Notes under the pieces: model-generated
The model's input: only the letters and a program-made list of their open reading frames with translations
The model's database searches: none
Told to the model about the DNA's origin: nothing
Part shown: positions 2,317-19,457 of the stretch, in pieces
How positions within the stretch are numbered: position 1 is the first letter of the stretch
How the letters are laid out: the number at the start of each line of letters is the position of its first letter
Position numbers and translations under genes: made by a program
Origin: Desulfothermus okinawensis JCM 13304
Lineage (GTDB): Bacteria; Desulfobacterota; Desulfovibrionia; Desulfovibrionales; Desulfothermaceae
Direction: 5' to 3'
Assembly (NCBI GenBank): GCA_001311565.1
Contig: BBBM01000008.1
Coordinates: 1-64,000, forward strand
Length of the DNA: 64,000 nt

Positions 2317-2770
2317 AAAGAAGGTAGAAGGGTCTTTTTTTATGTGAAGCAGATTATTCAAAGGTATCTCTGATAAATAAAGAAATTTTAGAAAGATTAA
2401 AAGACCAATGGAGTAAATAAGAATGACTTAGACAACATAGGTCTTATTTTAGAAGAGATCACTTTAAATATATGTAAATATGCCTATCCTGGAGATAGGA
2501 TTGGAACCATTGAAATTAATTTTTCTATTGTAAAAAAATTATCTTATCCTGATTTTTAAGGACAAGGGTAAGCAATTTAATCCTCTTGAATACAACTTGT
2601 CTAAGCCCATAGATAAGAATTCTTCTCTTGATGAACTTCGTCCAGGGGGACTTGGAATATATCTTGTAAAAGAGATGTCCCACCGTTTATCTTATGTTTA
2701 TAAGGATTCCACCAATATATTAACAGTAATATTTAAACTAAGTGGAAATTTTTTTTCTATAAATTTTTAA
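2297..2770 (+). CDS. Anti-sigma regulatory factor, HATPase (RsbW/SpoIIAB-like serine kinase)
   Basis: GHKL-type ATPase expected to phosphorylate the STAS protein encoded just upstream. The reading LILEEITLNICKYAYPGD gives the N-box (E and N), FKDKGKQFNP the G1-like box and RPGGLGIYLVKEM the G2 box. Start chosen as TTG at 2297 because GGAGG lies six bases upstream, inside the end of the STAS gene; this overlap implies translational coupling. Slips near 2340 (seven-T run), 2420 and 2555 must be bridged to read the whole protein, which would have about 157 residues, normal for the family. The exact N-terminus is less sure than the catalytic part. Confidence 0.75.
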
Positions 2771-2775
2771 TCTGG

Positions 2776-2946
2776 GTTTATCAAAATAGATAAACTGGGG
2801 TTAAAAATCCCCGTGTGGGTACTTAGATTTCGTCCCTGGGCATAAAATAAAAAAGCCAGCTAGTTAACCTGGCTTTTTTAAAGGTGATTTTTTTGTAGGA
2901 ATTTTTTTATTAGCCCGAGTTTATCAAAATGATAAACATCGGGCTA
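2776..2946. repeat. Two copies of a GTTTATC-GATAAAC hairpin flanking the terminator
   Basis: The stem GTTTATC / GATAAAC occurs at 2776-2795 and again inside a longer hairpin at 2911-2946 (TAGCCCGA plus GTTTATC, one bulged base, loop AAAAT). A GGGG-N8-CCCC hairpin is at 2797-2812. They share the convergent intergenic space with the terminator; the copies lack a U tract, so they may be mRNA-end stabilisers rather than terminators. Confidence 0.55.
2849..2879. terminator. Bidirectional rho-independent terminator
   Basis: Perfect 11-bp stem AAAAAAGCCAG / CTGGCTTTTTT with a 9-base loop, so it ends in a U run on both strands. It lies between the convergent anti-sigma kinase and thiolase genes. Confidence 0.85.
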
Positions 2947-2970
2947 ACTAAGTTAGATTAAAGGATTTTT

Positions 2971-4142
2971 TTATACCTTTTCAAATACTCCAGCTGCACC
3001 CATGCCACCACCAATACACATGGACACGATACCATATTTGACGTCTCTTCTGTGCATCTCATGTAGCAAGGTTGCTGTTAGCTTTGCACCTGTACATCCA
3101 AGTGGGTGACCAAGTGCTATTGCACCACCATTTACATTCACAATCTCAGGATTGAGTCCCACTTCTCTAATGCAGTAGATTGCCTGTGATGCAAAGGCTT
3201 CATTTAATTCAACGAGACCAATATCATCTAATTTAAGTCCAGTTTTTTTCTAAAACTCCCGGTATGGCACGAGATGGTCCAATTCCCATGAGCTCAGGTG
3301 GAACTCCTTTTACATCATAGCCAACAAACCTTGCCATGGGCTCTTTACCTATCTTTTTTTAGAAAATCCTCAGACACAACCATGCAAAGTGCTGCGCCAT
3401 CTGTCATCTGGGACGAATTTCCTGCAGTAACAGATCCGCCAGCCTGAATGGAGATTTTAGTTTTGCCATTTTCTCCAGGGTAGTATCAGCTTGGGCCATC
3501 GTCTATGTCAACTATCTCTTCGGTTTTTATGAGCTCATCACCAACTACTTTTGTCCTGGTGACTTTAACGGGAATTATTTCCTCCTTGAATTTACCTTCT
3601 TTTATAGCCTTAACTGCCTTCATATTGCTTTCATAACCAAATTGATCCTGCTCTTCCCTGGTAATGTTGAATTTTTCAGCAACAAGTTCTGCGGTAATAC
3701 CCATTGATGCATAGGATTCTGGCCAGTCCAATACAAGATCAGGATTGGCACTGAGAATGTGACCTCCCATGGGTACCTTGGTCATTGATTCAACACCACC
3801 TGCAATTATGCAGTCAGCAAATCCAGCCATGACCCTTTCTGCTGCCATGGCTATGGTCTGCAGGCCAGAAGAACAGAACCTATTTACAGTGACTCCAGGA
3901 ACAGTATGTGGTAGACCTGCACCAAGAACGATCATTCTGCCCACGTTCATTCCCTGTTCTGCTTCAGGGAATGAACAACCAACAATTACATCTTCAATGA
4001 GTTCATGTTCCACACCTGTTTTTTCTAAAAGTCCCTTTAAACAAACAATACCCAGATAGTCAGGCCTTACATTAGCAAATTTGCCCCTTTTTGCCTTACA
4101 TCCAGGTGTTCTAACTGCCTTTAATATATATGCTGCTCTCAT
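2971..4142 (-). CDS. fadA: Acetyl-CoA acyltransferase (thiolase)
   Basis: Catalyses the last step of beta-oxidation, thiolytic cleavage of 3-ketoacyl-CoA. About 390 residues, the family length. Visible motifs: active-site nucleophile in [13 protein letters not shown] (about residue 90), the catalytic His in [15 protein letters not shown], and the second catalytic Cys in [10 protein letters not shown] near the C-terminus. Slips near 3485, 3360 and 3250 interrupt the middle. The gene starts 40 bases after the FadN-type gene, so the pair is one operon on the minus strand, likely under the palindrome at 6642. It could act in the biosynthetic direction (acetoacetyl-CoA synthase), but the FadN neighbour argues for fatty-acid degradation. 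Confidence 0.92.
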
Positions 4143-4181
4143 AGATATCCTCCATAAATGGTTTATATAACAAAAATTAAA

Positions 4182-6558
4182 TTAGTTTCTAAGCGGTCTA
4201 TTGGTAGTTAACATGTGTTTGATCCTTTCCTGTGTTTTTTTTCTTGTTTGCATAGCTCAACAAAGGTCTCTCTTTCCAGTCTAAGTACATATTCTTCAGT
4301 AATCAATGTTCCAGGATCAACGTCTCCACCACAAATCACATCAGCAATCATAGAAGCCATTTTGTATTCATATTCAGTTATAAAATTTCCCATTTTCATA
4401 TTCCACAGTTGGCTCTTAATTGTTGCTGCAATATCCCTACCAGGGGCCTTAAATGGCATAGGGGTCTTGGTCTATAGGTCTTTGCTAGGGTAAGTACCAT
4501 CTGTTTAGCGTTTCCAATTAGACTGTCAATATCCATTGTGATCTGATCGCCCTGTCTCATATATCCCAGTTTAAATGCCTCTGCAGCGCCCATGGATACC
4601 TTGGCCATAGCAATGTTTTGGAAGTATTTAACGATTATATTTTGTACATTTACCCCCAGTTTTTCTGCCTCTTCTACTGCCCTAACACAGAGTTCCTTTG
4701 TTCCACCTCCTGCTGGAAGCAGACCAACGCCAACTTCTACTAGTCCCATATAGGTCTCAATATGGGCACAAATGGCGTCAGAGTGGAGGCAATATTCGCA
4801 TCCGCCACCTAAGGTCATCTGAAATGGTGCTGCAACAACTGGTACTGCAGCGTATTTTAAGGCCATTGTGGCAGATTGAAATTTTTTTGACACCAGCTTC
4901 GATTTGGTCAAAGGCCTTTTGCTCAATGGCCACTGCCACCATAAATAGGTTTGCACCAACAGAGAATCTCTCTCCCTGATTCCCAACTACAAGGCCAACT
5001 CCCTGATTTTCAGCAATATCGACTGCCTTAAAGGTCATATCCAACATATCATCACTGATTGAGTTTTGGGGGGAGTGGAATTCAAGGCAAAATACTCCAT
5101 CGCCAATATCAACAATAGATGCGTTGTCATTGGATGCCACAATCTTTTTCTCGTCGGTCTTAATAAGGGCAAGGTTGATGGTGCCTTCTCTGGTTGGAAC
5201 TTCTTTGTATTTATTGTTTATAATATCGTAATAGTATTTTTTCCCATTTTCTATCTTGTAAAAACTTTTAATGGATTTTAGTTTTTCAGGTACATTGATT
5301 CCTTCTTTTTCTGCCCTTTCCACAAAGTAATCTATTCCAATTGCATCAAAGGTTTCAAATGGCCCAAGTTCCCAGTTGTATCCCCATTTCATTGCATTAT
5401 CCACATTGACCACATCGTCAGCTATCTCTGGAATACGTTTAAAGGAATAGAGTAGGGTATCCCTCAAGATCCTCCATGCAAACTCAGCAGCCTTGTCTTG
5501 TCCCTGAATTAGAGCCTTTATCCTCTCTCCAGTGGTCTTGGCCATTTTTGCCAGCTTGATTGAGTCAAATTTGGGCTTGGTAACTGGCTTATACTCTCCA
5601 GCTTCGTAATCCCAGTAAAATTTTTGCTTTCCTTCCCTTTTATAGAAACCCTGCTTGGTCTTTCTCCCGAGCTGTTTATTTTCAACCATCTTTAGGATGA
5701 ATTCAGGCATCTTGAATGCTTCTCTCTCGTCGTCATCAACCAAAAGCTCATAAGAGTTATTTGCAACGTGTACCATTGTATCTAAACCAACTAAATCAGT
5801 GGTACCAAAGGCTGCACTTTTGGGACGCCCTGTGGGCCTTCCAGTAATTGCGTCAACCTCTTCCACAGTAAGCCCCATATCCAACATGTGATGGATACAC
5901 TTCATTATGGAGTATACACCAATTCTGTTACCAATAAAATTTGGGGTGTCTTTACAAAATACAATACCTTTGCCCAATCTCTGGTTGATGAAATCAGCCA
6001 TAAAATCCACTACTTTTGGATCGCACTCATTGCACCCCACAATCTCCATGAGCCTCATATATCTCGGTGGGTTAAAAAAAGTGGGTGACTAGAAATCTCT
6101 TTTTCACATCATCGGGCATCACAGTTGCCATCTCATTTACTGATAAACCACTAGTATTTGTTGAAAGGATTGCATCTTCCTTTAAGTGGGTAACTACCTT
6201 TTTGAACAAGCTTTTTTTTAATGTCCATGTTTTCAACAACAACTTCAATTACCCAGTCACAGTCCTTTAACTTGTCCAGATGATCCTCAAAATTGCCTGT
6301 TTCTATTAATTTTGCGTATTCTGGCAAAAGAAAAGGAGCTGGCTTCATTTTTAGGAGATTTTTGAGGGCAGTATTGGCTATCTTGTTTCTGACTTCAGGA
6401 CTTTCCAATGTTAGCCCCTTGGCCTTTTCCTCTTCAGTTAGTTCCCTTGGCACAATGTCCAGTAAAACCACTCTAACTCCTGCATTGGCAAGGTGAGCTG
6501 CAATGGTTGCACCCATTACACCTGCACCTAATACAGCTGCTCGTTTTATCCTTTTCAT
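4182..6558 (-). CDS. fadN: FadN-type 3-hydroxyacyl-CoA dehydrogenase / enoyl-CoA hydratase
   Basis: Two-domain beta-oxidation enzyme: hydration of enoyl-CoA and NAD-dependent oxidation of 3-hydroxyacyl-CoA. The dehydrogenase is N-terminal (AAVLGAGVMGATIAAHLANA, Rossmann motif at residues 8-27; CKDTPNFIGNRIGVY) and the hydratase C-terminal (QMTLGGGCEY, VGVGLLPAGGGTKEL). This order and the length of about 790 residues match Bacillus-type FadN rather than FadB/FadJ, where the hydratase comes first. Reading through the A run near 4240 gives the family's typical ending (TQERIKHMLTTNRPLRN), so the stop is at 4182. Other slips are near 6215, 6085, 4890 and 4470. Start has a good ribosome binding site (GGGAGG). 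Followed by the thiolase. Confidence 0.92.
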
Positions 6559-6912: not shown

Positions 6913-8216
6913 ATGTCTCAAAATGCCTTAAAAATAGGCAGAGAAGAGAAAAAGACCACCTTTATGCAAAAGGTTATGGAGATTTTGCCTGAAGGTGGGA
7001 ATTTAAACCTCTGCCTAACATGTGGAGCATGTTCCTCTGGGTGTCCAGCATCAGGAATAGACGGTATGGACCCAGAAAATTTTTGAGGATGGCAGCCTTG
7101 GGATTGGATGAAGAGGTAACAAAATCTGGTTGGGTCTGGTGTTGCACCCAGTGTAGACGTTGTGTTCATGCCTGTCCAATGAATATAGATATACCAAGAT
7201 TGGTATATTATGCTAGGCAGTCCTGGCCAAGGGAGGAGAGGCCCAAGGGCATTCGGGCATCGTGTGATGTAGCATTGAATAATCCTGGAAACAGTGCAAT
7301 GGGGGCTGGTTCAGAGGACTTTAAGTTTGTTGTGGAAGATGTTCTTGAGGAAGTGAGGGAGACCCAACCCCGTTTTAAGGATATGGAAGCACCCATTGAT
7401 AAAGAGGGGGCATATTATTTTCTAAATCAAAATTCCAGGGAACCAGTAACAGAGCCAGATGAGATGGTTCCTTTGTGGAAGATTTTACACATAGTTGGTG
7501 CAGATTGGACCTACAGTACCCAAGGTTGGGCAGCTGAAAACTATTGTATGTTTTTATCAGACGACGAAGCCTGGGAGAGGATCGTCAGGAACAAAGTGGA
7601 GGCTGTGGAAAAACTTGGGTGTAAGGTATGGCTAAACACCGAGTGAGGACACGAACTTTTTGCATTCCTGGAAGGAATACGCAAATTCAACATCAAAAGA
7701 AATTTTGAAGTAAAATCAATAGTTCAATTATACGCCCAGTGGATAAGGGAAGGAAAACTCCCTGTTTCTTCAGATTGGAACAAAGACCTTAAGGTAAAAT
7801 TTACAGTTCAAGATCCCTGCCAGCTTGTGAGAAAATCTTTTGGTGACCCAGTTGCAGAAGATTTACGTTTTGTAGTCAAGGCCTGTGTTGGTGAAGAAAA
7901 TTTTGTGGATATGTATCCCAATAAATCCAACAACTTCTGCTGCGGTGGTGGTGGTGGATTTTTGCAGGCAACTGGATTTCAGGATCAAAGACGTCAATAC
8001 GGGAAGATAAAGTTCAGGCAAATAATGGAAACAGGTGCCCAGTATTGCATAACTCCTTGCCATAATTGCCATTCCCAGATTCACGATTTAAGTGAATATT
8101 ATGAAGGTGGATTTCACGCAGTTCATCTTTGGACCATAATTTGTCTGTCTATGGGTTGTCTTGGTGAAAATGAGAGGGAATATTTGGGGGATGATTTAAG
8201 AGAACTTGGCCTTTAA
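6913..8216 (+). CDS. HdrD/DsrK-like iron-sulfur reductase, selenocysteine at UGA 7644-7646
   Basis: Cytoplasmic electron-transfer subunit of the HdrD/DsrK/GlpC family, about 434 residues. Two 4Fe-4S motifs are N-terminal (CLTCGACSSGCP, CTQCRRCVHACPMNID). The C-terminal part has a CCG-type cluster site: CQLVR, 39 residues, CCGGGGG, then TPCHNCHSQ. The conserved Glu-Cys-Gly-His of the family reads Glu-UGA-Gly-His (residue about 245); the frame stays open and homologous for 190 codons after the UGA, and a strong hairpin follows, so I read it as selenocysteine. A one-base slip near 7079 separates the first cluster motif from the rest. No transmembrane segment is seen, unlike archaeal HdrE partners. 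Divergent from the beta-oxidation genes and upstream of a two-component system; its partner may be the HdrA complex at 14.4 kb. Confidence 0.85.
7660..7684 (+). promoter_or_regulatory. Predicted bacterial SECIS element (HdrD-like gene)
   Basis: Begins 13 bases after the UGA: TTGC then ATTCC, loop TGGAA, GGAAT, two-base bulge AC, GCAA. Nine base pairs with a GG-containing apical loop about 22 bases from the UGA, within the usual range for SelB recognition. Confidence 0.7.
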
Positions 8217-8384: not shown

Positions 8385-9927
8385 TTGAAAGATGGTATTA
8401 TTCGCATAGCCCTTATAGGAGGCGATGATTTTGCGTCAGAGGTTTTAGAGACCACTGTTAGGTATTATTCCAAGACCAAAAAAATTAAAGGCAAAAGTAC
8501 ATGCAGTGGCATGGCCAGATGAAAAAGCCCCAGCAATGAAACTTGCAAAGAGATTTAAAAGGAAGACATTTACAAAGATAGAAGACCTCTACAATCCCAG
8601 GGAATCCATAGATGTCATTATTGTATTGGTAGATGACCATGACCTTTTTAAGGAAATCCTTAAATCAAGACCTGTAAATATAAGAATAGTATCATATACA
8701 GTTTTCAGGCTCTTTTGGGATGCCATAAGTGCTGAGACAAGAAAAATAAAGACCCAGCTTGAGCAATTAAATGCAATTATCCACGGTATTGATGAAAACA
8801 TCCTGATAATTTCTCCAGATATGGAAGTTCAAGAGATAAATGATGTGTGCTTGAAAAAAATGGGATATTCTAGAGAAGAGGTTATTGGAAAAAAAGTGTT
8901 ATGAAATTTTTCAAAAGAGCAATAGAGAATGTCATTTTGATCAATTTGTGTGTCCAGTAAGGACAGCCCTGGAAACCAGAAAGAGTTGTAAGAGAATAAT
9001 GCCAAGAATAAACAGGGAGGGCAAAGTAGTATATCTTGAGATATCTCTATATCCCATATTTGATGAAAACAATACCTTGATCCATTTTGTGGAAATAAGT
9101 CGTGATGTTAGTGAACATATACATCAACACAGTGAGATATACAGGCAACTTGAGATGTTGTTGGAAAAAAACAAAAGAGGAACTTAAAGAAAGGGAAAGG
9201 GAACTTAGACATCAAGACAAGATGGCCTCCCTGGGGAAGTTGGCTGCATCTGTTGTTCACGAGATAAACAATCCTATTTCAGGAATATTAAATTTAGTAA
9301 TACTTATGAAGAGAATTATTGATGAAGGACCTGTTGAGGACAAGGAAATCAATATGTTTAGCAGAAATCTGAATTTGATGGAGTCTGAGATTAGACGAAT
9401 TAGCCGTATAACATCTAATCTCCTTACCTTTTCAAAGGGAAGAAGGAGTGAATTTAGTAGAATTAATGTAAATGATGTGATTAACGATGTATTATTTTTG
9501 TGTTCAAATGTGCTTAAGATAAACAAAGTGAAAATAAAAAGGGAACTACATCCAAACCTGCCAGTGATAGTGGCAGATGGAGAACAACTAAAACAGGTAT
9601 TGATAAATTTAATTTCAAATGCCATAGAGGCAATGGAAGGTCAGAAAGATAAAGAGATCTGTGTAAAGACAGAGGAAATGGGACAATTTGTAAAAATAAT
9701 GTTTGGGGACAATGGACCTGGTATACCAGAAGGGGTAAGAGATAAGATATTTGAGCCTTTCTTTACCACAAAAAAAGAAAGGTAAGGGAGTGGGACTTGG
9801 TCTATCTGTTGTATATGGCATTATAAAGAATCATTCTGGAACCATTGAAGTCAAAAATTTAAATGATAAAGGTACGTTATTTATCATCAAACTTCCAATT
9901 ACCCAGGCAGAGGAAAAGTATGGTTAA
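8385..9927 (+). CDS. PAS-containing sensor histidine kinase with a Rossmann-like N-terminal region
   Basis: Soluble two-component kinase of about 514 residues. Start is TTG at 8385, seven bases after GGAGG. Residues 1-110 begin with GIIRIALIGGDDFASEVLE and contain IDVIIVLVDDHDLFKEIL, which resembles a nucleotide-binding fold rather than a known sensor. A PAS domain follows (EINDVCLKKMGYSREEVIGK), then a coiled coil, HisKA with H-box SVVHEINNPISG, and HATPase with N-box LISNAIEAM, FGDNGPGIPEG and GVGLGLSVVYG. No transmembrane helices are visible, so the signal is probably cytoplasmic. Slips near 8480, 8897, 9172 and 9778. Overlaps the response regulator by 8 bases, so the two are a cognate pair. 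Confidence 0.88.
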
Positions 9928-11313
9928 AAAGAAAATATCTTCCAATGTTCCAAAAATTTTGATTGTAGACGACGAGATGATTTTAAGGGAATCACTTGCT
10001 GCATGGCTCATGAGGGATGGGTATGATGTTACATCAGTAGCCAGTGGAGAAGAGGCCATTGACCTGGTCACCAAAGAATCCTTTGATATAGTTTTTTTTA
10101 GATATAAAATTAGAAGGAATGGACGGCATTGAAGTCTTGTCAAAGATAAAAGAAATAGACACAGAGAGCTCTGTTGTAATGATCACAGCTTATGGGTCCA
10201 TTACAACAGCAGTTGAGGCAATGAAAAAAAGGAGCACAGGATTATTTGTTAAAGCCCTTTGAACCAGATGAGCTTAGTATGTTGATTGAGAGGATATTAC
10301 AAAATAAAGCACAAGAATTGGAAAATATCTATTTAAAAGAGACCATAAAAGAAAAGGCAAAGTTTGACAGATTGATTGGTCATTCCCCTAAAATGCAAGA
10401 AGTTTTTGAACTTATAAAAAGGATTGCGCCTATTGAATCTACGGTACTAATAACTGGAGAGACCGGCACTGGCAAGGAACTGGTCGCAAGGGCTATCCAC
10501 TCCCATTCTAAGAGGTGTGATGGACCTTTTGTTGCAATTAACTGTGGGGCCATACCTGAACAACTCATGGAAAGCGAGATTTTTGGGCATGAAAAGGGGG
10601 CTTTTACAGATGCCAGGGACCAGAGAAAGGGAAAGCTTGAACTTGCAACTGGAGGAACCATATTTTTAGATGAAGTAGGAGAACTCACTTTAAAGATGCA
10701 GGTGAATTTGCTCAGGGTATTAGAAGAAAAGTTATTTTATAGGGTTGGTGGATCAAAACCTATTTCACTTGATTCAAGGGTGTTGGCTGCAACAAATAGA
10801 GATCTTAAAAAAAGGGATCTCTGAAGGCTGGTTTAGAGAAGATCTCTATTATAGATTAAATGTATTTTCTATTCACCTTCCTCCTTTAAGGGAGAGAAAA
10901 GAGGATATTCCCATTTTGGCAAAACACTTTCTAATGGAATTTAGCAAAGAAACAAATAAACGTGTGGAAAAAAATAAGTCGTCAGACCCTAGATTTAATG
11001 ATGCTTCACAACTGGCCTGGAAATGTTAGAGAACTCAAAAATGCAATAGAGAGAGCTGTGGTTATATGCAGAGGAAAAATTATCCAACCTGAAGACCTAC
11101 CCATATTCAAAAGAGTAGGTGAAGAAAGAGATCAAGATGAAAAATTGTCTTTTTCCAAAAAAAACTCTTCCCCTAAAGGAATTGGAAAAAGAGTATATTT
11201 TAAATATATTAAGTAAAACAAATTGGAATATATCCCTCTCTGCCAAGCTCCTTGGTATAGATAGATCTACTTTGTATAACAAAATAAAAAAATACAATCT
11301 AAAGCGTGATTAA
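9920..11313 (+). CDS. Sigma54-dependent response regulator, NtrC family
   Basis: Activator of sigma54 promoters, about 465 residues. Receiver domain at residues 12-125 (ILIVDDE; phosphoacceptor Asp in DIKLEGMDG after bridging a T run), AAA+ domain with Walker A GETGTGKE, Walker [13 protein letters not shown] and [10 protein letters not shown], and a C-terminal Fis-type helix-turn-helix ([20 protein letters not shown]). The sigma54-contact loop reads GAFTDA instead of the canonical GAFTGA. Slips near 10098, 10230, 10805, 10970 and 11160. It starts inside the kinase gene. A consensus sigma54 promoter with upstream dyads lies 2.6 kb away (13922), in front of the GcvH-like pair, which makes that operon the obvious target. 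Confidence 0.9.
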
Positions 11314-11868
11314 TGGCAGATTCTTCCCCTTTTATTGGGATAAATCCTATAGAATTAAAGGAACAATGGTTCTTAGATCCCCTTGAGCACGAAATTAAAA
11401 ATACCTTGGGCCTAAATGCTAAACTAATTCACCTGTTGGATAATGTGGAATTTGCATATCACGAGGGTAGGAATCAATATTATTCTACAGAAATCTTAAA
11501 AAAAATTGGAAGAGTTGGTCCCAGAAAATTGTATAAGGGTCATTGCCATTACAAATAAAGATCTATTTATTCCCATATTAACCTATGTATTTGGAGAAGC
11601 CAGCTAGATGGTAAAAGTGCAATAGTATCTCTCTACAGATTAATGCCAGAAGACCGTAGCCCAACTAATCTTATTAGATTTCAGGAAAGAATAGTAAAGG
11701 AGGTCTTGCACGAATTAGGCCATACCTTTGGACTTACCCATTGCAGGGACAAAAAGTGCATTATGCACTATTGCAGAACTATAAAAGATGTGGATAAAAA
11801 GGAAAACAGGTTTTGTTTTTTTCTGTGAAACAATGATTAAGGATAAATTGAGAACTTTAAGTAAGTGA
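11313..11868 (+). CDS. amzA: Archaemetzincin family zinc metalloprotease
   Basis: Small zinc protease of about 184 residues. The signature is clear: HELGHTFGLTHC followed by RDKKCIMHYC, i.e. the HExxHxxGxxHC-x4-CxM zinc site with the extra cysteines of archaemetzincins. Its ATG overlaps the stop of the response regulator (TAATG), so it is in the same operon. Slips near 11500 and 11818. With one T fewer at 11818 the protein ends FCFFCETMIKDKLRTLSK, adding one more cysteine, which fits the family. The substrate is unknown; a link to the two-component system is only positional. Confidence 0.85.
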
Positions 11869-11870
11869 TA

Positions 11871-12788
11871 TTAATCATTGTACCTGAGAAATTTCCTTGA
11901 AAAGAAATCCCAATCTAATTGGGGTGCTTTGGTGAATATGTCTTCTATTAAATTTCCACCATCTGCAGCCAAGCACCATAGGTCTTTTCAACCTCGCCTA
12001 AAAAAAAGATCCACTTCTTGGGATAAAAAGTTTAATACCTCTTCTTCAAACATTAAATCTTTTATCTCTGTAGCAAGGCTGGTTGCCTGAACCTTAATTA
12101 TCCATCCTTTTGTATATGGATTGTCTTTTTTTTAACTTTCCTTCCCACACATCTGGATTTACATCTAAGACGATACCACTTACTGGAGCACATAGGTATG
12201 TCATTTTGTCTGATTTTTTTTAGGAAGATATGTTTTTTTCCCTTTTGTAATTTTTTTTGCCTAAAACTGGTGGTTTAATTTCAGAAAATGGACCAAATAA
12301 TCTTGAAACAAATTCATCCATTCCAATAATAACAGTGGAGCCATTTCCAAGTTTCATCCAGGTGTGATACTTTGAGAGATAATAGCCATGGGGGAACTTA
12401 AAGCCTTTTACTTTCATTTCACTTATTTGATCAATCTCTGCGTACACAGAATATACGTCCTCAAAGTATTGGTTAAATTCACATTTGGGACAATCATAAT
12501 CATTCATACATGGCCTAAATGGAGTTTTGTTTTTAATGGAGTAGATACATGGCCTCTTGTTTGGTTCAAGGGACAAAAGGTTTTGTTTCCAATGAACAAT
12601 TCGTCCTTTTCTACCTTTTGGTGGAATACCTTGTTTTTTTTAAGAGTTCATTTGTATTAGCAATTTTATTTAGGGCCTTATCCAATATGCAAGTATAACA
12701 GTCAAACCCATTTTTGCACTCCACTTCTCTTATAACCCGTGCAATGGACCAAATACACAATTTTTTTTGGGTTGTAATAGACAGACAT
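11871..12788 (-). CDS. GcvH-like protein with duplicated cysteine motif (paralog A)
   Basis: About 305 residues, much longer than GcvH (about 130). The N-terminal half has two copies of C-x12-C-x5-C-x2-C (starting at CVWSIARV and CIYSIKNK), likely binding metal or Fe-S clusters. The C-terminal half resembles the GcvH barrel: GFKFPHGYYLSKYHTWMK, VIIGMDEF, then CAPVSGIVLDVN. The canonical GcvH lipoyl-lysine context (ESVKA) is not seen; a lysine lies one position closer to the PVSG motif. Slips occur near 12745, 12635, 12225, 12130 and 12005. Start at 12788 has AGGAG before it. Downstream of paralog B, 70 bases apart, in the same sigma54-driven unit. Function unproven; it may be a partner of the Hdr complex. 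Confidence 0.75.
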
Positions 12789-12815
12789 CTTTCACATCTC
12801 CTGGGGAAATAATTT

Positions 12816-12863: not shown

Positions 12864-13873
12864 CAGAGTCTTCTACCTGACTTTTAAAAATGTTTTAGTT
12901 AAGTTTTCCCAACCAAGTTGTGGAGGTTGTCATAGATATTGTTTGCAAAAAGACCTCCATCTGCTGCCAGGGGTCCTGCAACGTGTTCCACCATGTTTTC
13001 TAAAACAGAGACCTCTTGTTTTAACCAGGGCATGCTTTCCTTATCATCCATTAGTTTTTTTCATGCTGACCTTTATGTCATTTGTCCTGATCAAAAACAT
13101 CCATCCATCTTCGTATGGAGATCTGTTGGCAACAGTGGGATTTTCGAATAATCTGTGGTTTACCTCGCAAATAATCCCACCTGCAGGTGCTAACACTTCT
13201 GCCTCTTTGTCCTTTTTCTTAAGTCCCCAACCTGGCGCATCTGGATCCAAGACCTTACCCATTAGCGGAAGCTCGAATTTTTCCATTTCCCCTAAGAGTT
13301 TTAAGGAAAAATCATCCATACCAATCCTGATGTATCCACCGCTTTCTATCCTTGCCCACGTGTGTCCATTGTGGAAATAGTAGCCAACTGGCAGATCAAA
13401 TCCCTTTATATTGTAAACTTCAGTTGCCCTGCTTGCCTCTTTTGGTGTAAGTACATCTTCTAAGTATTGGTCAAAATCACATTTGTCACAATGATAATCA
13501 TATGCACATAGCCTAAATGGAATTCTTTGAGTCAAGGTATGTCTGCAAATCCTGTTGTGTGGAGGGAGTTTTCTCATTGCATCCTGCCAGCTTATTATTT
13601 TTCCTTCTTTTGCCTTTTTCATCATGGCCTTATCATAAGCACAGGTTGTACAATCATAAAAATTTGTACAGCTCTTTCTATTAACTACTCCAGCCTGCAT
13701 CCATAGACATGGATTTTTAACTTTGTCTTTTTTTGTCTGGTTTAACCTTCCATATTTGGCCACCTAATACCACGTCAATTCCTTCATCTGTTGTGCCTGT
13801 TAAAAAAATTAACCTTTTCATAAACAGAACCATAACCTGTCCACCTGGTGTCTATGTTAGTCTTTCTACCCAT
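12859..13873 (-). CDS. GcvH-like protein with duplicated cysteine motif (paralog B)
   Basis: First gene of the sigma54-driven unit, about 338 residues. After a unique N-terminus (MGRKTNIDTRWTGYG...) come two C-x12-C-x5-C-x2-C repeats (CLWMQAGVV...CAYD and CRHTLTQRI...CDFD), then a GcvH-like barrel (GFDLPVGYYFHNGHTWARIE, IRIGMDDF, LAPAGGIICEVN, YEDGWMFLI) and a C-terminal tail ending PPQLGWENLTKTFLK, matched by APQLDWDFFSRKFLR in paralog A. The GcvH lipoylation context is not conserved. Slips near 13810, 13730, 13050 and 12920. AGGAGG lies before the ATG. Family members occur in Desulfobacterota; their biochemical role is not established as far as I know. Confidence 0.8.
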
Positions 13874-13921
13874 GATATTCCTCCTGTTTTTTTATTTTTT
13901 AGTTGTGTTTTCTTTAATATA

Positions 13922-13937
13922 AGCAACTGGTGTGCCA
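13922..13937 (-). promoter_or_regulatory. Sigma54 (-24/-12) promoter of the GcvH-like operon
   Basis: Minus strand TGGCACACCAGTTGCT matches the consensus TGGCAC-N5-TTGCW exactly, with the GG and GC doublets ten bases apart. The predicted start of transcription is about 38 bases before the ATG of paralog B. The regulator encoded at 9920 is of the required type. Confidence 0.85.
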
Positions 13938-14023
13938 TTTAGTGAAGGTTTTAATTTTTTTAATAAAAACAGTTAGTTGCTTGGACATATTCTTTATGAG
14001 TGAAAAAAATGGTTTAAAATGGG

Positions 14024-14040
14024 TGTAGAAAAATACTACA
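14024..14040. promoter_or_regulatory. Putative activator site 1 (TGT-N11-ACA)
   Basis: TGTAGAAAAATACTACA, a dyad about 90-105 bases upstream of the sigma54 promoter, a normal position for an enhancer-binding protein. Shares the half-site TGTAGAA with the next two sites. Confidence 0.55.
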
Positions 14041-14103
14041 ATTTATATTGCTGAAACAGACCATTGCTTAAAAAGTTAATATATTTAAATAGGTTATTGG
14101 TAT

Positions 14104-14120
14104 TGTGTGAGAATTCTACA
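14104..14120. promoter_or_regulatory. Putative activator site 2 (TGT-N11-ACA)
   Basis: TGTGTGAGAATTCTACA, same 17-base frame as site 1, with the half-site TTCTACA. It partly forms the perfect 16-bp palindrome TTCTACATATGTAGAA at 14114-14129 together with site 3. Confidence 0.5.
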
Positions 14121-14122
14121 TA

Positions 14123-14139
14123 TGTAGAAATTGTCCACA
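14123..14139. promoter_or_regulatory. Putative activator site 3 (TGT-N11-ACA)
   Basis: TGTAGAAATTGTCCACA, 19 bases from site 2. The three sites lie in the 506-base gene-free region 13874-14379 between the divergent GcvH-like and hdrA operons and could serve both. Confidence 0.5.
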
Positions 14140-14204
14140 AATTAAAAAGAAGTTAATACAATTTGGGCAACTAATTTTTTTCCCCTTAGTTTTTTTCAGG
14201 GCAG

Positions 14205-14233
14205 TTGACAATGGGTTGTTAATTAATTAGAAG
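14205..14233 (+). promoter_or_regulatory. Possible sigma70-type promoter of the hdrA operon
   Basis: TTGACA, 17-base spacer, TAGAAG (4 of 6 matches). A 5' leader of about 145 bases would follow. I found no sigma54 consensus on this side. Confidence 0.35.
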
Positions 14234-14379
14234 GTCAGTAACATTTTGTAAAAGATGGGTACTCGTTGTTTGAGCTGATTTTTTAATGAATTTAAGGTAG
14301 GGAAGGTTGAAATGTAGTTTTTTACTGATTTTTGGTAAAAGACTATATAAATTGATGACCAAGGTATAAGGAGAAACAT

Positions 14380-17300
14380 ATGGAAACTAAAATTAATCCA
14401 TCCAACAAAAATGGATCGGTTTTGGTGGTTGGAGGGGGTATTGCGGGCATGCAGGCAGCCCTTGATTTAGCAGATTCTGGTTTTAAGGTCCATTTGGTAG
14501 AGAAGAGTACTGGTGTTGGTGGGGTTATGTCAGAGCTTGACAAGACTTTTCCCACCAATGACTGTGCAATGTGAATCATCTCTCCTAAGCTGGTCGAGTT
14601 CGGCCGCCATCCAAATATCAACATAATCACTAAAGCCAAGGTCAAAGAAATTGAGGGTTCTGTTGGGAATTTCAAAGTAAAGGTTGAAAAATCTCCCAGG
14701 TATATTGATGTTACAAAATGTACATCTTGTGGTGAATGTGCATCAGTATGTCCAGTGGAGTTGCCAGATGAATACAATCAGGGGATGAGTTTAAAGAAGG
14801 CAACATCCAAGAAGTATGCCCAGACAGTACCAAGTGCATATGCCATATTAAAGGCAGAGCAAAAACCCCCATGCAGACTCACATGTCCTGCAGGGATAAA
14901 TGTTCAGGGATATGTTCAGATGGTAAAACAGGGCAAGTATAGGGAGGCCCTGGAGATTATAATGGAGCAGCTTCCACTCCCAGGGGTGCTTGGAAGGGTA
15001 TGTCCTGCTGGATGTGAAAAGGCATGTAGAAGGGGAGAATTAGATGAACCTGTGGCTATTCGTGCATTAAAGAGGCTTGCAGCTGACAAGTTTGATCCAA
15101 GGGATGTGGAGATTTGGTGTGCTCCTGAAAGGGAAGAGAAGGTAGCAATAATCGGATCTGGTCCAGCAGGTCTGTCCTGTGCATATCATTTAGCCAGAAG
15201 GGGGATCAAGTCCACTATATTTGAGGCTTTGCCAAAGCCTGGTGGAATGCTTCGTGTTGGGATTCCAGAGCACAGGTTGCCCAGGGATGTACTTGATAGA
15301 GAGATTGAGGTAATTACCAATTTAGGTGTTGAAATTAAGACCAACATGAGGCTTGGCAAGGATTTTACAATAGATGATCTGTTTAACCAGGGATATAAAT
15401 CAGTATTTATAGCAATAGGAGCACATAAAGGGATTGAACTTGGTATTCCTGGAGAGAAGGCAGAGGGAGTCAGGCAGGGAGTAGATTATTTAAGGGAGGT
15501 AAATTTAACAGGCAAGGTCCCCACAGGAAGAAGGTAGCTGTAATTGGTGGTGGTAATGTTGCAATAGATGTTGCCAGGGCAGCCATAAGACTTGGCGCAG
15601 AAGAGGTTACCATAGTATATAGAAGGACAGAAAAGGAGATGCCAGCCTTACCAGAGGAGGTGCATGCTGCAAAAGAGGAGGGAGTCAAATTCCTATTTTT
15701 AGCAGCACCTCAAGAGATTTTACATGAAGATGGTAAGGTGGTTGGCTTAAGGTGTATAAAGATGGAGCTTGGAGAGCCTGATTCATCTGGTAGGAGACGC
15801 CCAATTCCAGTACCAGATAGTGAGTTTGATTTAGATGTGGATCAGGTAGTTGCTGCAATAGGGCAGAGGGTAGATACATCCTGTTTAGAGGATGTGACAG
15901 GGATTGATTTTACCAGGTGGTCAACCATAGAGACCAATTCAATATCCTATGCAACAAATAAGAAAGGTGTATTTGCAGGTGGAGATTGTCAGAGTGGTCC
16001 ATGGGTAGTGATTGGAGCAGTAGCAGCAGGAAAAGAGGTGGCCATCTCCATTGAGAGGTATTTAAATGGAGAAGACCTAGAAGCAGGCAGAGAGCCTAAG
16101 AAGATAGATGAGGATTTTGAGTACAGGCCCATACCAGAAAATGAGTCAAAAAAAGACAAGGGCAAAGGAAAGAGAGCTTCCAGTAGAAGAGAGAAGGGGA
16201 AATTTCAAAGAGGTTGAACTGGGTTTAACAGAAGAAGAGGGAAGAAAAGAGGCTGAGAGGTGTATTAATTGTAGTTATTGTTGTGAGTGTTTCCAGTGTG
16301 TAAAGGCCTGTGGTGCTGGAGCTGTTACCCTGGAGACACATGCTCAGACAAAGGAAGAAGAAGTCTTAGATGTTGGAGCAGTTGTATTGGCCCCTGGATT
16401 TAATCCATATGATCCAAAGGGACTTGACACCTATGGATATGGCCTATTTCCAAATGTGGTTACCTCCATGCAGTTTGAGAGGATTTTATCTGCATCTGGT
16501 CCTACTGGTGGTCATCTAGTGAGACCTTCTGATCACAAAGAGCCAAAGAAAATCGCATGGCTCCAGTGTGTGGGCTCAAGGGATATAAATAGGTGTGAGC
16601 ACGGATACTGCTCATCTGTTTGTTGTATGTATGCAATAAAAGAGGCAGTAATTGCAAAAGAACACGCAGGGCTGATCTTGATTGTTCAATTTTTTTATAT
16701 GGATATGAGGACTTATGGAAAAGATTTTGAAAAATACTATGAACAGGCAAAGGAAAAGCATGGTGTGAGATTTATAAGATCTAGAATCCATACCATAAAC
16801 CCAGTACCTGGAAGTGACGATCTGGTTGTAAAGTATTTTGATGAATCAGGGGAGATAAAAGAAGAGCAGTTTGACATGATTGTACTATCCGTTGGCCTTG
16901 AGACTGCAAAAGATAGCATTGAACTTGCATCAGTTTTAGGTGTGGATCTAACTGAAGGTAAGTTCTGTGCAACATCTAGTTTTAAGCCTGTTTCCACCTC
17001 AAAAGATGGAATCTTTGTATGTGGAGCATTTCAAGGTCCAAAGGATATTCCCACAGCAGTTGTGGATTCATCAGCAGCAGCTGCAGCTGTTGGAGAAATT
17101 TTAAGTGACGTAAGATTTACCCAGACCACTGAAATAGAAGTCCCAGAGGAGAAGAATATAGTTGGAGAGCCTCCAAGAATAGGGGTTTTTGTGTGTAGGT
17201 GTGGTTCAAATATAGCTGGGGTAATAGATGTGCCTGCTGTTAGAGATTATGCAGCAACTTTGCCCAATGTGGTTTATGTGGAAGATAATATGTATACCTG

Positions 17301-18931: not shown

Positions 18932-19384
18932 ATGACGAACTTTGAACCAAAGATAGTTGCATTTTTATGTAACTGGTGTAGCTATGGAGCAGCTGATTTA
19001 GCTGGTGTTAGCAGGATGGAATATCCTGCAAATATCAGAATTATTCGAGTCCCCTGCTCTGGAAGTATGAGCCCAAAGTTCATATTGGAGGCGTTTAGGC
19101 AGGGTGTAGATGGCGTATGGGTATCTGGCTGACACCCAGGCGACTGCCACTATATTAGTGGCAATTTGTTCGCTAGACGGCGGTTCGCTGTCTTAAAGAA
19201 CTTACTTGAATACATAGGGATTGAGCCAGAGAGGCTGCATTTTACATGGATATCCTCAGCAGAGGCAGGGAGGTTTCAGGAAAAGGCCAAGCAGATAGTT
19301 GAAGCAGTAAGAAGCGTTGGACCTGCTAAAGAAAAGAAGAAGCTAATTAAGGATTTAAAACCAATTGCAATAAATTTGGGATAG
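18932..19384 (+). CDS. mvhD: MvhD/FlxD family iron-sulfur subunit, selenocysteine at UGA 19130-19132
   Basis: Electron-transfer subunit that passes electrons to HdrA, 151 residues, standard length and without frameshift. Motifs: [31 protein letters not shown] and [16 protein letters not shown], where family members have Cys at the UGA position (residue 67). The reading frame continues with family-like sequence for 84 codons to the TAG. Sec in this subunit is known from methanogen (VhuD-type) and deltaproteobacterial homologues. AGGAG precedes the ATG. It lies 85 bases after hdrA and before FrhB-like, FlxB-like and FlxA-like genes, so it fits the FlxD position in an Flx-Hdr complex. Confidence 0.92.
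19145..19163 (+). promoter_or_regulatory. Predicted SECIS-like hairpin (mvhD)
   Basis: Perfect 7-bp stem TGCCACT / AGTGGCA, loop ATATT, 12 bases after the UGA, with outer GCGA / TCGC pairing possible. The loop lacks the usual GG; a second hairpin with 8-bp arms (AGACGGCG / CGCTGTCT) is at 19175-19193. Confidence 0.45.
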
Positions 19385-19401
19385 ATGAAAGTTCAACGTT
19401 C

Positions 19402-19457
19402 GACGTTCAAAGTTCAAGGTTTTTTTATATAATATTGAACCTGGAACCTTGGACGTC
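19402..19457 (+). repeat. Imperfect inverted repeat of the GTTGAAC repeat family
   Basis: Arms 19402-19421 and 19438-19457 match at 17 of 20 positions as inverted copies built of GTTCAA / TTGAAC units. Related direct units occur at 34866-34912 and 49895-49929. It lies between mvhD and the FrhB-like gene. Confidence 0.6.

Follow-up and report, generated by a model that had tools for sequence, protein, structure and literature searches.

In Desulfovibrio vulgaris, sigma54 regulons mostly comprise one to four operons, which are governed by response regulators of the NtrC type and read from −24/−12 promoters, and in three groups of binding motifs TGT and ACA half-sites stand at a distance of 9, 11, or 12 bp (Kazakov et al., 2015, PMC4641369). 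DVU2394 is a sigma54 response regulator controlling the energy-metabolism operon DVU2405-DVU2399 (PMC4641369). The sigma54 two-component enhancer-promoter is a well-known architecture, and the locus described here has in common with the D. vulgaris two-component regulons an NtrC-type regulator, a −24/−12 promoter, and TGT/ACA motifs. It differs from the DVU2394 regulon in that the energy-metabolism operon of the latter, which we take to be hdr-flx, itself has a sigma54 promoter, whereas hdrA of our locus has one of the sigma70 type, and in that DVU2394 carries GSFTGA, whereas GAFTDA is found in the regulator family of our locus. A text search of PMC4641369 for terms relating to GcvH, Hdr, and archaemetzincin gave no hits, and in the open-licence papers searched we found no description of the regulon, the sites, or the target genes and no functional account of the GcvH-like family.

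The window, i.e., the whole stretch of 64,000 nucleotides from contig BBBM01000008.1 that was analysed, stems from the draft genome of Desulfothermus okinawensis, which consists of 2.77 Mb in 124 contigs and is 43.8% complete. Genes of the window are mostly split by frame breaks, among them those for the kinase, the regulator, and both GcvH-like proteins, and since the draft (G000) is apparently full of small insertions and deletions, apparent pseudogenes in the window are not to be trusted. An intact gene set is present in a genome of the same genus (G003, locus L026); for work on proteins, intact orthologs were taken and the frames of the window were left unmended. Relatives came from two sources, the family of the window, with seven genomes, and a set of named genomes, with 80 loci, the latter mostly from Desulfobacterales plus some metagenome-assembled genomes of Desulfohalobiaceae. 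In total, 77 orthologous loci from the Desulfobacterota were examined, 75 of which offered usable upstream regions. Of 297 sampled genomes, 9 encode close orthologs of the GcvH-like family and 40 encode related proteins; the genomes sampled from other families within the order of the window yielded no member. Desulfosarcina alkanivorans and D. cetonica are cultured carriers of the GcvH-like genes.

Linkage of the genes and co-occurrence of a regulator ortholog with the gene pair within the family make it highly probable that the locus constitutes a dedicated two-component sigma54 regulon controlling tandem GcvH-like genes. The original prediction of a full-consensus −24/−12 element ahead of the GcvH-like operon holds, as TGGCACACCAGTTGCT (13922–13937, minus strand) matches the consensus exactly about 48 nt upstream of the start of the GcvH-like open reading frame and is kept in orthologs. 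Allowing ≤1 mismatch, the element is found upstream of the GcvH-like gene in 68 of the 77 loci (30 exact, 38 with one mismatch), which is equalled by shuffled sequence in about 0.3% of trials. Its GG and GC stand at the fixed spacing of sigma54 promoters upstream of a gene, and rpoN is present. Exact copies of TGGCAC-N5-TTGCW number three in the 2.77 Mb draft, one of them at the GcvH-like locus; within 300 bp of the other two (C7:52002 and C32:4144), TGT-N11-ACA is absent, and for this reason these two probably serve other activators. In L087 (5190–5910), the promoter region is present in two copies on either side of a run of N, and the apparent second enhancer-promoter module, which precedes this run, was rejected as a probable scaffolding duplication.

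Upstream of the promoter lie three 17-base TGT-N11-ACA sites, with coordinates and sequences as first described and with no strand assigned, namely a proximal candidate activator site TGTAGAAAAATACTACA (14024–14040), 86 bp away from the −24 box as measured to its upstream edge, an inner distal candidate TGTGTGAGAATTCTACA (14104–14120) with a gap of 166 bp, and an outer distal candidate TGTAGAAATTGTCCACA (14123–14139) with a gap of 185 bp, 19 bp from the inner one. For the 443-bp upstream stretch of the window, these 3 occurrences of TGT-N11-ACA compare with 0.22 expected from Markov shuffles (P(≥3) = 0.0016). Comparison with relatives is the stronger test, and the conservation it reveals places the promoter and sites well outside the range of chance. 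The consensus proposed at the outset, TGTRKRR-N3-YYMYACA, had to be replaced, as it fits only the middle site exactly; TGTNG-N7-CNACA, to which the middle site has one mismatch and the first and third have none, is the better description of the family. In a scan of all 896 gapped 3+3 palindromes, TGT-N11-ACA ranks first (63 of 75 loci), followed by an AT-rich palindrome with 40. Similarly, TGTNG-N7-CNACA is present in 59 of 75 upstream regions against 0.2 expected, and 0 are found in coding controls. If one mismatch is allowed, none of the 75 loci is without a site, 64 have two or more, and 28 have three or more; for one, two, and three sites, the best of 100 shuffled sets reached 10, 1, and 0, respectively. 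The 75 upstream regions fall into 61 groups without remaining mutual alignment, and therefore shared recent ancestry does not explain the matching sites. In three genomes that did not enter the motif derivation (L129, L131, and L133), the promoter is accompanied by two or three sites, which occupy the slots predicted. Among 12 more distant relatives from other families of the phylum (L134–L145, 33–43% identity), 9 possess an at least partly matching promoter and at least one site (≤1 mismatch), which is weaker evidence because promoter positions were picked as best matches within 1 kb. The promoters and sites of L134–L145 hint at a wider regulated family.

When sites of the 75 loci are arranged by their gap to the −24 box, three slots emerge, a proximal one at 68–115 bp, an inner one at 155–206 bp, and an outer one 19–22 bp beyond the inner. 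With ≤2 mismatches, these are occupied in 70, 73, and 51 of the 75 loci, respectively, all three being filled in 50 and the proximal and inner slots together in 70. Distances from site to site cluster at 19–22, 79–81, 89–92, and 109–114 bp, which amounts to increments of roughly ten base pairs, and the spacings in the window (19, 80, and 99) are in or near this pattern. Repeated palindromic sites about 70–225 bp upstream of the −24 box with preferred spacings constitute a layout of enhancer sites, as is seen for the activator sites of looping sigma54 regulators in NtrC-type systems. The same predicted arrangement of promoter and sites is kept across dozens of mostly uncultured sulfate-reducing bacteria, and because of this conservation a regulator can be named together with its likely target, and both are open to testing.

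It is the clustering at the GcvH-like promoter, and not the motif by itself, that is distinctive. In 791 kb of related loci, 90 of 102 exact sites lie within 600 bp upstream of a GcvH-like gene. In contrast, a scan of the whole draft for TGTAGAA-N3-TTCTACA with ≤3 mismatches gave 196 places against 311 in the reversed control, so that the motif alone is uninformative genome-wide, and TGTNG-N7-CNACA alone gave 33 places genome-wide against 26 for a control. Searching three genomes for the distal pair with 2 mismatches recovered, as recognisable GcvH-like control-region pairs, only those already known from G061 and G062; the remaining pairs look mostly like chance or repeated sequence. The combined pattern of promoter and sites has 6 matches in 18 genomes, each at or near a GcvH-like locus, and further targets may exist, since the pattern recovers the known target in only 6 of the 18.

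Convergent with the GcvH-like genes, the plus strand of the window encodes a histidine kinase (8385–9924, frame broken) with an N-terminal Rossmann-like domain, PAS, HisKA, and HATPase domains, a sigma54 response regulator (9920–11310), which is the candidate activator, and, in the same direction, an archaemetzincin-like metalloprotease (11310–11870). The regulator starts at 9920 as originally predicted, with its frame broken in the draft assembly, and consists of a receiver, an AAA+ domain with a GAFTDA loop, and a Fis-type HTH. In L026, the kinase (2744–4279) and the regulator (4275–5648) are intact, and the latter has the receiver, AAA+, and Fis-type HTH domains of NtrC-type proteins. The GAFTDA loop is present in 40 of 41 regulator orthologs and has been listed among the variants compatible with activation (Kazakov et al., 2015, PMC4641369). 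With respect to NCBIfam NF033823, the archaemetzincin-like protein of L026 scores above the cut-off and the copy in L032 1 bit below it; HExxH is found in all 12 archaemetzincin-like copies listed, and a glycine follows the motif in only 5 of 47. Kinase, regulator, and archaemetzincin genes lie beside the GcvH-like pair, in convergent orientation, in 49 of the 77 loci, many of the remaining loci being truncated by contig ends. Within the family of the window, 6 of 7 other genomes carrying the pair possess an ortholog of the regulator (61–64% identity; 100% for G003, the source of the query), the exception being G009, where none was found, and all three family genomes lacking the pair offer a match of at best 47%. 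Adjacency is not universal, since in L036 and L042 the kinase adjoins the pair and the regulator and archaemetzincin genes are located together elsewhere in the genome and since the search in G009 gave no ortholog. In the window and 47 related loci, an archaemetzincin-like metalloprotease accompanies the regulator, also where both lie away from GcvH-like genes (L124 and L125).

Convergent adjacency and co-occurrence within the family make the neighbouring sigma54 response regulator the best candidate for the activator. We infer that it is the protein bound at the sites and that the kinase is its partner. According to this model, the sensor kinase, with its Rossmann-like and PAS domains, would phosphorylate the adjacent NtrC-type regulator, which would then occupy the three 17-bp TGTNG-N7-CNACA sites, i.e., the distal pair about two helical turns apart (19–22 bp) and the proximal site some 80–90 bp nearer to the promoter. 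DNA looping would carry the regulator to the sigma54-RNA polymerase at the −24/−12 element, and this contact would switch on the tandem GcvH-like genes.

Other sigma54 activators, many of which are encoded in the genome, could in principle bind these sites, in which case the neighbouring regulator would have another target. Besides the two relatives in which the regulator is not adjacent, the observation that similar motifs are not always paired with similar DNA-binding domains (PMC4641369) counts in favour of a different activator encoded elsewhere. However, the conserved linkage and co-occurrence of the neighbouring regulator speak against it, and the combined pattern, which is of limited sensitivity, revealed no second conserved target for the motif in 18 genomes, so that we consider a different activator unlikely.

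On the other side of the sites, hdrA (plus strand, from 14380 to approximately 18717, frame broken further on) is the first gene of an hdrA-mvhD-flx-like operon. An in-frame TGA near 14572 in hdrA (CAM-U-IISPK) is read as selenocysteine, as are those of an mvhD-like gene near 18976–19432 (VSG-U-HPGD) and of an Fe-S protein gene at 7020–8213 (LNTE-U-GHE). The original prediction had envisaged that one regulator and one site array might set both divergent operons. Indeed, the sites lie between the two operons in the window and in L026–L028, hdrA and/or metF occur within 35 of the 77 loci (19 of the 31 with full flanks), and metF-hdrA operons with a sigma54 element of their own exist in L043 and L075. 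However, hdrA has a conserved sigma70-type promoter, TTGACA-N17-TAGAAG (14205–14233, plus strand), which is kept in L026 and L027; TTGACAATRGGTTGTTAATTAWTTAGAAGG upstream of hdrA is nearly identical in the window and L026, and the −35/−10-like hexamers recur in L027 and, by eye, in L028. No sigma54-like element facing hdrA was found in the window, the best match having 4 mismatches, and in L029–L032, where hdrA does not lie divergently beside the pair, the sigma54 element and the TGT/ACA sites are kept, some with one mismatch. In addition, other loci show no enrichment of sites near hdrA. Because of the sigma70-type promoter of hdrA, the lack of a facing sigma54 element, and the persistence of the sites without hdrA, the array belongs to the GcvH-like operon; the prediction thus stands for this operon, with its conserved promoter and sites, and is unsupported for hdrA, and joint control of both operons seems improbable, although the sites may exert a minor effect on the hdrA promoter. 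As to the metF-hdrA operons of L043 and L075, each is preceded by an exact sigma54 promoter of its own (at +3925 and −831, respectively, counted from the GcvH-like gene), which indicates that sigma54 control of hdrA occurs elsewhere by other means; in L043, a different response regulator adjoins this promoter.

TGT/ACA half-sites are common to Rex- and CRP-like factors, whose operators are palindromic over 16 bp, TGT and ACA being separated by N10. Binding of such a global regulator to the three sites, instead of the neighbouring sigma54 regulator, is highly improbable, and Rex/CRP operators were rejected on length, as N10 spacing occurs in 5 of 75 upstream regions against 63 of 75 for N11, the sites keep fixed distances, 70–225 bp upstream of the −24 box, as those of sigma54 activators do, and in related loci they are found almost only at the GcvH-like promoter.

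The presumed targets of the dedicated sigma54 regulon, GcvH-like protein 1 (12880–13873, minus strand; stops inside, frame broken) and its tandem paralog GcvH-like protein 2 (11920–12815, minus strand, frame broken), which is presumably encoded by the second gene of the operon and is present in 75 of the 77 loci, are GcvH-like and not true GcvH. Protein 1, consisting of a Cys-rich N-terminal part, a GcvH-fold domain, and a C-terminal AADGG, matches Pfam GCV_H (1.4e-17) and is 78% identical to the intact ortholog in G003. The fold itself is that of GcvH (Pfam 1.1e-18; TM-score of about 0.9 over the GcvH domain against 1onl). At the position of the lipoyl lysine, however, L026 has G where 1onl has K, and the lysine is kept in just 4 of about 80 matches for GcvH1 and 5 of about 73 for GcvH2, its usual replacements being D, E, G, or N; because this lysine is missing, we call the proteins GcvH-like. 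They also differ from GcvH by a Cys-rich N-terminal extension of about 150 residues with invariant cysteines and by a C-terminal extension, and they score below the NCBIfam cut-off for gcvH. Structure prediction for the N-terminus gives a pLDDT of <50 at residues 48–145.

The N-terminal domain of the kinase is predicted to adopt a Rossmann fold (pLDDT 90.6), with weak structural matches, among them NAD-binding oxidoreductases and GAR transformylase (TM 0.44–0.60), and because of this predicted fold a nucleotide or redox signal is possible for the kinase, which is probably soluble. A Rossmann-like domain ahead of PAS is unusual and might serve to sense NAD(H) or a different nucleotide. Linkage to metF and hdrA, a functional hint, suggests a role of the GcvH-like pair near the methylene-tetrahydrofolate reductase/HdrA electron-transfer machinery. 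Rather tentatively, one might speculate that in this two-component system of many Desulfobacterota the kinase senses a nucleotide or redox signal of the cytoplasm through its Rossmann domain and that the system thereby controls a new class of non-lipoylated, Cys-rich GcvH-fold proteins serving the metF/HdrA machinery; if this were true, sulfate reducers would possess in it an accessory of the reductive acetyl-CoA pathway that is under redox regulation. A candidate regulator-target pair with exact DNA sites is thus named for genes that are widespread in Desulfobacterota, and because cultured carriers exist, it is testable which signal is sensed, whether the regulator binds, and what the GcvH-like pair does beside metF/hdrA. 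A certain likeness exists to LbpA, a lipoate-binding protein of the sHdr pathway, which is genetically tied to Hdr-like proteins (PMC6067878). To that extent, a GcvH fold and a genetic tie to Hdr-like proteins are common to LbpA and the GcvH-like pair, whereas LbpA binds lipoate and the lipoyl lysine is replaced in the pair.
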